From Paracoccaceae bacterium (lineage in GTDB: Bacteria > Pseudomonadota > Alphaproteobacteria > Rhodobacterales > Rhodobacteraceae): a stretch of DNA of 50,160 nt. This document shows, piece after piece, positions 10,376 through 31,801 of the stretch (its first letter is position 1; each line of letters begins with the position of its first letter). The DNA lies in the NCBI GenBank assembly GCA_029938175.1, contig JAPYON010000001.1, positions 139,659-189,818 of the forward strand, given 5' to 3'. Under the pieces are notes generated by a model. The model had not been told where the DNA came from, did no database searches, and saw nothing but the letters and a program-made list of their open reading frames with translations. The position numbers and the translations under genes were made by a program.

Positions 10376-11464
10376 CTATGCGTCGAGCGCCCGGCAGTCT
10401 TCGGTTTGCCAGCTAACTTTGGTGTTTTCGCCAACCACCAGATGCTTATGCCCCGAGGCATTGGGCACCTTAACGATGAAATCGTTATGGCCCGACACTG
10501 TCATACGGCAACGAATATGGTCGCCTAGATAGATAAGTTCCTGAACCAGAGCATCGGTCGAATTCGACCCATCCCCCGTAAGCGCCACGCGCTCTGGCCG
10601 GACCGAAAGCATCGTGCGATCCCCCACCGCGCCGCAATTCACGGCCAATGCGCGGGCCGTCATGCCGCCGTCGAGGTCAACAATAACGTTGTCGCCTTCC
10701 TGCGCGCGAATGATGCCCTCGAGCTTGTTATTTTCGCCGATGAATTGCGCCACAAACGCGTTCTCTGGCCGTTCATACAGATCGTCAGGCTTGGCGAGCT
10801 GCTGGATAACGCCGTCGTCAAAAACCGCCACACGGTCCGACATGGTTAATGCCTCGGACTGGTCGTGGGTTACATAAACCACAGTAATTCCAAGCTGCTC
10901 GTGAAGGTGTTTGATCTCGTACTGCATTCGCTCGCGCAGCTGTTTATCGAGCGCGCCTAGCGGTTCGTCCATCAGTACCAGTTCGGCGTCAAAAACCAAC
11001 GCGCGCGCCAAGGCGATACGTTGCTGTTGGCCACCCGAAAGCTGTGCTGGTCGACGGTAGGCAAAGTCGCCCATCTGCACCATATCAAGCACAAGTCTAA
11101 CCTTTTCCTCGCGTTCAGACTTGCCTATCTTACGGACTTCCAGCGGGAAGGACAGGTTTTCACCAACCGTCATATGCGGGAACAGGGCGTAATTCTGAAA
11201 CACCATCCCGATGCCACGTTTATGCGGAGGGGTGTTGTTGATCGGCTGACCTTTCAACAGAATGTCACCGTGCGTGGCGACTTCGAATCCGGCCAACATC
11301 ATAAGGCATGTTGTTTTGCCGGAACCCGATGGCCCGAGCATGGTAACAAACTCGCCTTTGGAAATTTGAAGATTAAGGTCTTTTACGACTAGAATTTCTC
11401 CGTCATAACTTTTTTGAACGTGATCAAAGGCCACGAACGCGTCTTGTAAACTTTTTTGCGACAA
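10376..11464 (-). CDS. ABC transporter ATP-binding protein (PotA-like)
   Basis: Walker A GPSGSGKTT, signature LSGGQQQRIALARAL, Walker B ELVLMDEPLGALD, TOBE-like C-terminus. Confidence 0.92.
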   Translation of the reverse strand: MSQKSLQDAFVAFDHVQKSYDGEILVVKDLNLQISKGEFVTMLGPSGSGKTTCLMMLAGFEVATHGDILLKGQPINNTPPHKRGIGMVFQNYALFPHMTVGENLSFPLEVRKIGKSEREEKVRLVLDMVQMGDFAYRRPAQLSGGQQQRIALARALVFDAELVLMDEPLGALDKQLRERMQYEIKHLHEQLGITVVYVTHDQSEALTMSDRVAVFDDGVIQQLAKPDDLYERPENAFVAQFIGENNKLEGIIRAQEGDNVIVDLDGGMTARALAVNCGAVGDRTMLSVRPERVALTGDGSNSTDALVQELIYLGDHIRCRMTVSGHNDFIVKVPNASGHKHLVVGENTKVSWQTEDCRALDA

Positions 11465-27399: not shown

Positions 27400-28938
27400 A
27401 TGAGCAGACGAGCAGGGGGCCGCAGCGCCCGCAAAGCCATGCGTGCCGCGCCACTTTCGGAAGAAATACGCCCGATTTGTGCTGGCATGTCGGGTGGGCG
27501 TTACAAGCCCTTGTCCGATGACGACATCGCGCAAATCCACGAGGCAGCGATGGAAATTCTGTCCGACATCGGGTTTAAGGACGCGACCGAGGGCTGCATC
27601 GCCGCCTGCACCGCCGTAGGGGCGATCTATAGAGACGGGCGGCTGTTTTTTCCGCGTGATCTGGTTCTGGAAACCATCAAAACCGCGAACCGTGATATTA
27701 CCCTCTGCGGACGCGATTCAAAACACGACATCCACCCACAGGGTACCAAAGTACATTTCGGTACAGCGGGCGCCGCGGTGCATATCGTCAACGTGGAAAA
27801 AAACGAATACCGCGAAAGTATGCTACAAGATCTTTATGATGCCGCACGCATCGTGGACCAGCAGGACAACATCCACTTTTTTCAACGCCCTTTGGTGCCG
27901 CGCGACATGACAAATGAGCTGGATCTGGACATAAACACGCTTTATGCGAGCCTTTCGGGTACTAATAAACATATCGGTACCAGCATCACTCTGGTCGAGA
28001 ACTGCAAGCCGTTTGTTGACATGATCTACGCAGTTGCGGGAGGCGAAAATGCGTTCCGCGCCCGCCCATTTGTCTCGGTTTCCGCGACGTTCATAGTGCC
28101 GCCGCTACGCTTTGCGACCGAGGCACTGGATGTGATTGGCGAGATGGTCAACGCCGGTGTTCCGGTGCTGCTTTTGTCTGCCGGGCAGGCGGGCGCGACC
28201 TCGCCCGCTGCGCTCGCCGGATCGGTGGTGCAGTCGATTGCCGAAGTGCTGGCTGGTCTAGTTTATATCAACGCACTTGCCCCTGGCCATCCGGCGATAT
28301 TCGGGCCGTGGCCGTTCGTGTCGGACCTGCGTACTGGTGCTATGTCCGGCGGCTCGGGTGAGCAGTCGTTGCTGATTGCTGCAGTAACCCAGATGGCCAA
28401 CCATTATGACCTTCCTTGTGGTGTGCCCGCCGGAATGAGCGATGCAAAAATGCCGGATATCCAGTCGGGTTATGAAAAAGGCATCACCACGGTGATGGCT
28501 GGCTTGTCCGGTGGTAATATGGTGTACGAAGCTGCGGGAATGCATGGTTCGTTGTTGGGATTCTGTCTTGAAAGCCTGATCCTCGATAATGACATTCTGG
28601 GTCAGTCGCTTCGCTGTGTACGCGGGATTGAGGTGAACGAGGACACGCTGTCGTTGGACACGATCCGTAATGTAATCAACGGGCCGGAGCATTTTCTGGG
28701 CCAGCCTCAGACGCTCGATCTGATGCAGAAAGAGTACATCTATCCGGTGATCGGTGACCGCACGACCCCGAAGGAATGGGAGGAATTGCAAAAACCCGAG
28801 ATAGTCATCAAAGCCATTAAGGAAAAGCGCCGCATTCTGGTTGAGTTTTTCCCACAGTATATTTCAGAAGCAGTGGATGCGGATTTACGTGCGCGATTTG
28901 ATATTAAGCTGCCAAGGGAACGGATGAAACGGGCGTAA
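27400..28938 (+). CDS. Trimethylamine methyltransferase (MttB) family protein, non-pyrrolysine type
   Basis: Family-typical LSDDDIAQIHEAAMEILSDIGF N-terminus, AGMSDAKMPDIQSGYEKGITTVMAGLSGGNMVYEAAGMHGSLLGFCLESLILDNDILG; uninterrupted 512-aa ORF, no in-frame amber. Confidence 0.88.
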   Translation: MSRRAGGRSARKAMRAAPLSEEIRPICAGMSGGRYKPLSDDDIAQIHEAAMEILSDIGFKDATEGCIAACTAVGAIYRDGRLFFPRDLVLETIKTANRDITLCGRDSKHDIHPQGTKVHFGTAGAAVHIVNVEKNEYRESMLQDLYDAARIVDQQDNIHFFQRPLVPRDMTNELDLDINTLYASLSGTNKHIGTSITLVENCKPFVDMIYAVAGGENAFRARPFVSVSATFIVPPLRFATEALDVIGEMVNAGVPVLLLSAGQAGATSPAALAGSVVQSIAEVLAGLVYINALAPGHPAIFGPWPFVSDLRTGAMSGGSGEQSLLIAAVTQMANHYDLPCGVPAGMSDAKMPDIQSGYEKGITTVMAGLSGGNMVYEAAGMHGSLLGFCLESLILDNDILGQSLRCVRGIEVNEDTLSLDTIRNVINGPEHFLGQPQTLDLMQKEYIYPVIGDRTTPKEWEELQKPEIVIKAIKEKRRILVEFFPQYISEAVDADLRARFDIKLPRERMKRA

Positions 28939-29570: not shown

Positions 29571-30812
29571 ATGCAATCACGCCTTCTTCCTTTCGTCCTG
29601 ATTGGCATAGCCATCGGCGTGGTCACTGCATTTCTGTCTGTTCTGGAGGAGCCGTTCTGGACCGTTCTCATCTCGGTTCTAGTGATGGTAATCTTATTTG
29701 GGCTGTTGCTGGAGGTCATGCGTAATCCGGTCGAAGAAGGAGATGTCGAGGTGGCGGCAACTGCCAAGCCGATGCCGACGGGGTTCGGGCGGGCGATGCT
29801 GGAACAAATGCCGCTTCCGCTGCTGGTGATTTCGCGTGAGGGGCGGGTGGTTTATGGAAACCCCGCCGCCAAAGAGGTTCTACCCAGTTTGAAACCAAGG
29901 GATCATTTCGCGAGCCTACTACGTGTTCCCGTATTCGTTGATGCGGTCAATGCCGCTGTGACCGATGGAAAGAGTAGCAAGATTTCCTTCACCACTAGCC
30001 AACCACACGAACGGTATTATGAGGCCAGTATAGGCTTGATGCCGGCGGGCAGCGATTTTGACGACAAGGTGCAAGCGATTGTCCAAATCGAGGACCGGAC
30101 ACAGGATCGCAGGGTTGAAAAAATGCGCAGTGATTTTGTGGCGAATGCCAGTCATGAGTTGCGGACACCGCTTGCCTCGATCTTGGGATATATTGAGACT
30201 TTGCAAGGCCACGCCAAGGATGATCCGGTTGCGCGTGAAAAATTTCTTAATATCATGGACAAGCAGGCGACGCGGATGCAGCGCCTTGTTAACGATTTGA
30301 TGTCCTTAAGCCGGATCGAACTGAACGAGCATGTCCGCCCCAGCGACCCATGCGAGTTGAACGAGCTGGTGCGCGAGGCGATATCAGCCCTGTTGCCGTT
30401 GCAAAAGAAATACGAAGTGACATTGGAAACCTTGTTGGACGGCGATGGTCCGGTGGTTGCTGCGGATCGTGATCAGCTGAATCAGGTGCTGGTCAATCTG
30501 ATAGATAACGCCATGAAATACGGTGGCGGTGGCACGGTTGTGACCGTGACAACTGCCGCGCCGGATTTGCGATATGCGAATATGGTAGGGATCACGATTG
30601 CGGATCAGGGCGCAGGGATCGGGGCCGAGCATTTGCATCGCCTGACCGAGCGTTTCTATCGTATAAACGTAAAACAAAGCCGCAATAAGGGGGGCACCGG
30701 CTTGGGTTTGGCGATTGTTAAACATATCGTTAACCGCCACGGCGGCGATCTGCAGATAGAATCGACTTTAGGTGAGGGCAGCCGGTTCACGGTCTGGCTG
30801 CCTGTATCTTAA
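29571..30812 (+). CDS. phoR: Phosphate regulon sensor histidine kinase PhoR
   Basis: Two TM helices, PAS-like region, H-box FVANASHELRTPLASILGYIETLQG, N/G boxes (NLIDNAMKYGG, GTGLGLAIVKHIVNRHGG); followed by a Pho box and phoB. Confidence 0.88.
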   Translation: MQSRLLPFVLIGIAIGVVTAFLSVLEEPFWTVLISVLVMVILFGLLLEVMRNPVEEGDVEVAATAKPMPTGFGRAMLEQMPLPLLVISREGRVVYGNPAAKEVLPSLKPRDHFASLLRVPVFVDAVNAAVTDGKSSKISFTTSQPHERYYEASIGLMPAGSDFDDKVQAIVQIEDRTQDRRVEKMRSDFVANASHELRTPLASILGYIETLQGHAKDDPVAREKFLNIMDKQATRMQRLVNDLMSLSRIELNEHVRPSDPCELNELVREAISALLPLQKKYEVTLETLLDGDGPVVAADRDQLNQVLVNLIDNAMKYGGGGTVVTVTTAAPDLRYANMVGITIADQGAGIGAEHLHRLTERFYRINVKQSRNKGGTGLGLAIVKHIVNRHGGDLQIESTLGEGSRFTVWLPVS

Positions 30813-30836
30813 TCGTATTGGTCATTAGTACCGGTG

Positions 30837-30857
30837 GGGGCGCTAACGCCCCTTCTT
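30837..30857 (+). terminator. Putative intrinsic terminator after phoR
   Basis: GGGGCG-CTAA-CGCCCC stem followed by TTCTT. Confidence 0.6.
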
Positions 30858-30873
30858 GTCATAAAACCGTCAT
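30856..30873 (+). promoter_or_regulatory. Pho box (PhoB binding site)
   Basis: TTGTCAT-AAAA-CCGTCAT: two 7-mers with 4-bp spacer, close to consensus CTGTCATAAATCTGTCAT. Confidence 0.75.
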
Positions 30874-31094
30874 GTCAGTGCAATAAAAGTGCGTTCGAAG
30901 TGGCTGATTCACGAGCCGCGGAATAACTATTCTGCGGTGAGTGTCACGCACTCGATGCAGCAGGTCGTGCGGGTCTCTCAAAAAAGGTATTTTTTAATCT
31001 TGGGGATAGGGTAGAATACGGCGACACGTCGGCGATTTTCACCAACTCGGTTGACCAACGCACGCAAGGTTACATTGCCGGCCTGTTCGGTTAA
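30874..31094 (+). pseudogene. pstB: Degraded 3' end of pstB (phosphate ABC transporter ATPase), frameshifted
   Basis: Frame 1: SAIKVRSKWLIHEPRNNYSAVSVTHSMQQVVRVSQK; then frame 0: FFNLGDRVEYGDTSAIFTNSVDQRTQGYIAGLFG*; matches the PstB C-terminus (cf. E. coli [32 protein letters not shown]...FTKPAKKQTEDYITGRYG). Confidence 0.88.
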
Positions 31095-31105
31095 AGGGGG
31101 CAAGG

Positions 31106-31801
31106 ATGAGCATTAAAGTTCTGGCAGTCGAAGATGAAGAGGCGATTAGCCATCTGCTGAACTACAATTTGACGGCCGAGGGATTTGCAGTTTCCATCAT
31201 TGATGACGGTTATGAGGCGTTGATGGCGGCAGAGGATTTCCAACCTGACATCATTCTGCTGGATTGGATGTTGCCGAACGTCTCGGGTATCGAAATTTGT
31301 CGACAATTACGGGCGCACACCGAGACGCGGGACATTCCGATTATCATGCTGACAGCGCGGGCCGAGGAAGAGGACCGCTTGTGCGGGTTTGACAAGGGCG
31401 CGGATGACTACGTGACCAAACCGTTCTCGATGAAGGAACTGGTGGCGCGGATACATGCGGTTTTGCGACGGGTTAATTCTGCGGCAATGGAAAATTTGGT
31501 GGAGTTTGGCGATATCGGTTTGGACCGCGACACGATGCGAGTGAAACGGGCTGGCGAGGCGGTGACGCTCGGACCGACGGAGTTTCGTTTGCTGGAAGTT
31601 TTAGTTAAATGGCCAGGGCGTGTTTATAGCCGCGAACAATTGCTTGATCAGGTTTGGGGGCAGGGCATTTACGTGGAAGCCCGCACGGTCGACGTGCACA
31701 TCGGGCGGTTGCGCAAGGCGTTGAACAAGGGCGGCTTGGCTGACCCGATCCGCACAGTGCGGGCTTCGGGTTATGCGCTGGACGAGACGTACGGTGGGTG
31801 A
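31106..31801 (+). CDS. phoB: Phosphate regulon response regulator PhoB
   Basis: OmpR/PhoB receiver (ILLDWMLPNVSGIEICRQLR, KGADDYVTKPFSMKELVARI) and winged helix; 12 bp after the pstB remnant. Confidence 0.9.
   Translation: MSIKVLAVEDEEAISHLLNYNLTAEGFAVSIIDDGYEALMAAEDFQPDIILLDWMLPNVSGIEICRQLRAHTETRDIPIIMLTARAEEEDRLCGFDKGADDYVTKPFSMKELVARIHAVLRRVNSAAMENLVEFGDIGLDRDTMRVKRAGEAVTLGPTEFRLLEVLVKWPGRVYSREQLLDQVWGQGIYVEARTVDVHIGRLRKALNKGGLADPIRTVRASGYALDETYGG

Follow-up and report, generated by a model that had tools for sequence, protein, structure and literature searches.

Comparison of the phoR–phoB locus of this Paracoccaceae bacterium with those of its congeners indicates that it probably descends from an ancestral phoR-pstSCAB-phoU-phoB arrangement from which pstSCAB-phoU disappeared in this lineage only. 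The scar itself is real and well explained; the interesting part is the persistence of the two regulator genes, which have been kept while the stump of pstB between them decayed. The locus lies in the window, which is the whole stretch of 50,160 nucleotides analysed, inside contig C49 of a 2.13 Mb draft genome of 216 contigs that is 98.4% complete. The phoR stop, the hairpin, the Pho box, the pstB 3' end readable in two frames and phoB, as described in a first-pass annotation made from the window alone, are all present. The elements of the locus are:

29571..30812, + strand: phoR, intact sensor kinase gene (413 aa) with a TM segment, a PAS-like region, HisKA and HATPase_c
30836..30853, + strand: hairpin, likely the phoR terminator (folding of 30830-30862: ΔG -15.3 kcal/mol, z -2.6)
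30856..30873, + strand: Pho box TTGTCATAAAACCGTCAT, the former pstS promoter box (23.3 bits with a matrix built from the congeners' pst boxes)
30879..30888, + strand: -10-like element TGCAATAAAA, whose distance to the Pho box is the ancestral one
30904..31094, + strand: 3' remnant of pstB covering the last ~63 codons, one nt deleted at ~30985-30992 (TIGR00972 in two frames)
31092..31105, + strand: joint of the phoU deletion, a stop/Shine-Dalgarno stretch TAAAGGGGGCAAGG (from comparison with four congeners; BLAST pieces overlap at 31095-31099)
31106..31801, + strand: phoB, intact response regulator gene (231 aa; TIGR02154)

The genus sample consists of the 13 genomes in the collection, of which 11 have PstC above the cut-off; it is missing from the source genome and from G002, an assembly of only 68% completeness. 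Every congener whose contigs span the locus has the order phoR-pstS-pstC-pstA-pstB-phoU-phoB, as in the MAG NORP23 (L009) and Rhodobacterales bacterium 52_120_T64 (L012), and the congeners have in common a trimethylamine-methyltransferase-like gene and a short ORF before phoR and carB after phoB. The locus studied here agrees with this canonical one in gene order, promoter position, Pho box, flanks and orthologous phoR and phoB, and differs from it in the deletion of pstS, pstC, pstA, most of pstB and all of phoU. In Caulobacter the canonical locus comprises phoR, pstCAB-phoUB and pstS. Alignment of the window to the intact loci of relatives, a check that had been proposed earlier, gives collinear flanks and a piecewise match (phoR; a short promoter piece; the pstB tail at 30905-31099; phoB from 31095) with pst-phoU missing here, and the same scar was not found in the congeners. 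The intact syntenic loci thus bear out the earlier proposal that a pst operon was deleted and its Pho-box promoter fused to a pstB stump. Further upstream in the window, an Rfam PYLIS_3 match (28435-28534, 53.8 bits), the pyrrolysine insertion sequence of mttB, lies inside an MttB-like methyltransferase gene (27400-28938); the frame of this gene is open without readthrough, so the match probably reflects sequence homology to mttB and not a working element.

The remnant is a PstB pseudogene, as seen from its homology in a broken frame and its release from purifying selection. Its two translated segments match consecutive stretches of the PstB model TIGR00972 (185-212, E 6e-4; 215-248, E 2e-5), as the first-pass annotation had read them, and a whole-genome PstB search recovers the same two pieces at 30901-31091 of the window. 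The DNA of the tail is 84–85% identical to the pstB end of the closest intact congeners. The remnant does not begin directly after the Pho box, as had been thought, but at ~30904: the peptide 'SAIKVRSK' is not PstB, and 30874-30903 is the pst promoter/leader. The 1-nt loss was correctly noticed, but it was misplaced at the A6 run, which is ancestral and present in relatives; the missing base lies just after it, at ~30985-30992. Likewise, the stop of the remnant (31092-31094) precedes the phoB ATG by 11 nt and not 12 bp. In the tail, 11 of the 52 residues that are invariant in nine relatives have been altered. A codon model with a separate ω on the branch of the source genome, fitted on fixed tree topologies, gives the tail a branch ω of 0.52–0.57 against a background of 0.04–0.05 (2ΔlnL 19–25), and ω of 1 is not rejected. 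The stump has therefore evolved nearly neutrally (ω 0.5–0.6).

Two deletions account for the present form of the locus, rather than the single one suggested earlier, which was right about the loss of pst and most of pstB and missed that phoU was removed by a separate event. The first deletion, with a span of ~4.8 kb as measured in L009, joined the pst leader, ~15 nt past the -10 element, to codon ~195 of pstB. In the second, phoU was lost between two copies of a TTA(A)GGGGG stop/Shine-Dalgarno motif. The intact loci of relatives read GGTTAAGGGGGAA over the pstB stop and the phoU ribosome-binding site and TTTTAGGGGGCAAGGATG over the phoU stop and the phoB ribosome-binding site, the motif before phoB being TTTTAGGGGGCAAGG; the joint here is GGTTAAAGGGGGCAAGGATG, in which, by comparison with four congeners, GGTTAAGGGGGAA and TTTTAGGGGGCAAGG are merged. 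To judge from these sequences, the joint has the form expected from a deletion between short repeats, and the ribosome-binding site of phoB itself is intact. The pst genes would have been lost before phoU or together with it, because loss of PhoU is harmful in alphaproteobacteria with an active Pst: according to PMC11208175 (citing Lubin et al. 2016), Caulobacter cannot do without PhoU, and in Sinorhizobium, to go by the title of a cited paper, it modulates the Pst transport rate. The pstB stump then degenerated, and purifying selection continued to act on phoR and phoB. The locus shows a route of dismantling in which the promoter and the regulators are spared and phoU is excised between two ribosome-binding sites.

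The promoter that was spared is recognizably that of pst. The Pho box is the best site in the window, the next one scoring 13.6 bits with the same matrix, and its sequence and position agree with the pst boxes of congeners. The TGCAATAAA of the -10 element and its spacing are common to most congener pst promoters, the other congeners having TGTAATAAA or TGTTATAAA. Transcription of phoB would start from this old promoter with a leader of ~215 nt, and PhoB would still activate its own gene. The control of phoB by the pst Pho box stands as first proposed, but the autoregulatory loop is not new: phoB is already the last gene behind the same Pho box in congeners, so phoB inherited its autoregulation through the pst promoter, and the deletions only shortened the loop. 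The box has two mismatches to the strict consensus CTGTCATNNNNCTGTCA, and no site with at most one mismatch to CTGTCATNNNNCTGTCA was found anywhere in the genome. A loose Pho-box pattern has four matches in the genome against two for a reversed control, which is chance level except for the phoB box; the three other matches are apparently unrelated to phosphate genes. Several congeners also have a Pho-box-like site (A/T-TGTCATATTCCTGTCA) in front of a pyruvate kinase gene (L235, L238 and L243, position 1501). At the place that corresponds to 30813-30850, a short opposite-strand gene separates phoR from the Pho box in four congeners (e.g. L009 ~11240-11440); this gene is absent here and in G012 and G004, and GGTCATTAGTACCGG is a possible trace of it of ~15–25 bp.

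The loss extends to the whole genome. A whole-genome profile search gave no PstC elsewhere, and no PstA either via the PstC model, which cross-matches PstA in congeners. PstB has no match over the cut-off, the best reaching 234 bits against 343, and this best match (C157) is a polar amino-acid type ABC ATPase adjoining its permease and not PstB. No phoU gene was found in the genome, the only PhoU domain being the one inside NptA (35.8 bits against a cut-off of 130.25). PiT is absent from the source genome, as from most congeners. The PstB, PhoU and PstC/PstA searches rule out that Pst has moved elsewhere in the genome, and the absence of PiT rules it out as a substitute importer. Among the parts of the canonical PhoBR-Pst-PhoU system, PhoB and the Pho box are thus present, and PstSCAB (searched as PstC, PstA and PstB) and PhoU are missing. 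The earlier view that PhoBR had been left without its local transporter holds for the rest of the genome too, and the search for other transporters that had been proposed with it found an NptA-type Na+/Pi symporter with both Na_Pi_cotrans (PF02690) and a PhoU domain (PF01895) above cut-off. NptA is the only Pi importer family found among those searched (PstB, PstC/PstA, PiT and NptA). The gene order upstream of nptA is the same as in the congener G003 (the same two genes), so NptA predates the loss of pst and was inherited with the genus. Near nptA, G003 has a PPK2 polyphosphate-kinase gene (L197:15933-16832), of which only ~59 bp of the 5' end aligns here (L193:7731-8000, contig C64); no PPK2 was found in the source genome. 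A link between the losses of PPK2 and pst is not supported, PPK2 being absent in three pst-keeping congeners as well.

Both regulators are intact. PhoR has Pfam HisKA and HATPase_c above cut-off; its best NCBIfam match, TIGR02966 phoR_proteo, is below cut-off (299.8 bits against 334.2), and its orthology is established by synteny with the intact pst operons of the closest congeners, whose phoR is 80–83% identical. PhoB scores 326.5 bits with TIGR02154, above the cut-off of 296.2. In the codon model, the branch ω of phoR is 0.062 (background 0.090) and that of phoB 0.074 (background 0.050); neither differs significantly from its background, and ω of 1 is rejected with 2ΔlnL of 235 and 83, respectively. 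Domain-wise fits, with distant relatives left out, show the PhoR kinase part (ω 0.033) and the PhoB receiver (0.043) to be as tight as in relatives. The near-neutral evolution of the stump beside the constraint on phoR and phoB means that PhoBR was kept in use after the loss of its standard sensor.

What PhoR responds to is likeliest to be the PhoU domain of NptA or a signal intrinsic to PhoR. Phosphate would enter through the remaining symporter NptA, and PhoR would be set by its PhoU domain or by an intrinsic/cytoplasmic signal, not by Pst. Work in S. aureus (PMC13170248) and Salmonella (PMC11389368) points to PhoR inputs besides Pst. In S. aureus, the PhoU domain of NptA (PNaS) helps to repress PhoR (PMC13170248); a Na+/Pi symporter with a C-terminal PhoU domain is also present here, with a candidate role only, and S. 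aureus differs in having Pst, PitA, PhoU and PitR as well. We tentatively propose that PhoR-PhoB has been rewired to the symporter, the PhoU domain of NptA replacing the whole Pst-PhoU complex as PhoR input, which would have let pst and then phoU go while PhoBR stayed selected. The first-pass annotation had left open whether the regulon is constitutive or controlled by another transporter; NptA with its PhoU domain may be that transporter, and a constitutive regulon is the alternative. On the latter reading, which is possible but doubtful, the absence of Pst and PhoU makes PhoR a constitutive kinase, and the cell keeps PhoBR to activate phoB and a small number of targets at a fixed level, the scar and its history being the same. 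Deletions of pst give constitutive Pho expression, and in Caulobacter PhoRB is controlled only through PstSCAB: without pstS, PhoB remains ON even in cells resupplied by PitA (PMC11208175). By this model PhoB here would be permanently on. PhoB is still tied to the Pho box at its own promoter, and a search in front of the nptA operon revealed no such box, a point against the preferred reading. However, in a locked kinase the PAS-like region of PhoR should be able to drift more freely, whereas its constraint is undiminished (ω 0.056 against 0.064; ω of 0.5 rejected, 2ΔlnL 27.9), which favours a regulated kinase, and a transporter with a PhoU domain does exist in the genome.

It is improbable that PhoBR is on its way out, selection having ended with the loss of pst and the low ω reflecting pre-loss time only. 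PhoB has seven changes at residues invariant in congeners, and ω is weakly raised in its DNA-binding half (0.12 against 0.055), a weak relaxation that is not significant (2ΔlnL 3.45). Fits of a constrained-then-neutral branch, again with distant relatives left out, nevertheless put the neutral share at 0.40 for the pstB tail (62 codons; zero rejected with 2ΔlnL 22.7, ~0.14 to 1 acceptable), 0.00 for phoR (0.05 rejected, 2ΔlnL 15.1) and 0.03 for phoB (0.10 rejected, 2ΔlnL 5.7). A share of 0.3 is rejected for both regulators (2ΔlnL 97.7 and 30.7), neither reading frame is interrupted, and kinase and receiver still have their conserved motifs. Finally, although the genome is a 216-contig draft judged from its assembled contigs, and another PstC-negative genome (G099) looks like a contig-edge artefact, it is very improbable that intact pst genes exist and were lost or misjoined in assembly, as a misjoin would not yield a tail with one base lost and with changes at sites invariant elsewhere, no Pst or PhoU gene occurs on any contig at this completeness, and the contig around the locus extends over at least 189 kb, the flanks keeping the gene order of relatives.

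Whether PhoR can sense without Pst and PhoU is disputed between the Caulobacter work (PMC11208175) and that in S. aureus and Salmonella (PMC13170248, PMC11389368). A natural lineage without Pst and PhoU in which phoR and phoB are constrained makes the question testable with a two-gene cassette and one candidate partner. The locus is a clean natural experiment and not a new kind of system, and loss of PstC is uncommon in the family: PstC (E 1e-40) is absent in 11 of 299 Rhodobacteraceae genomes that are at least 95% complete, the source genome included and one of the 11 doubtful. The absence in G099, where the sequence is cut at a contig edge inside pstS, is probably an artefact. A clear PhoR is kept in five of the 11, again including the source genome, which among these PhoR-keeping genomes is the only one in which pst and phoU are gone, phoR and phoB are neighbours and a stump can still be read. 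No report of a pseudogenised pst with PhoBR retained was found in the literature. In G312 and G197, phoR has no phoB beside it, and in two PstC-negative genomes a PhoR-like gene stands with no phoB, phoU or pst nearby (L297:6796-8082 and L298:6313-8175). G284 (L295:8219-10808) resembles the source genome in having phoR and phoB close together without pst genes between them, but it keeps phoU (phoR-phoU-phoB), while the source genome lacks phoU and has the pstB stump and the pst promoter. Amaricoccus L014 and the MAG locus L015 have a phoR–phoB spacing similar to that of G284, which suggests that phoU is retained there. The flexible phosphate islands of HIMB59 (PMC10734472) are a further case from marine alphaproteobacteria in which Pho genes have come and gone by lineage, but with the opposite result: every island retains pst-phoU, and the genes missing at high phosphate are phoRB.
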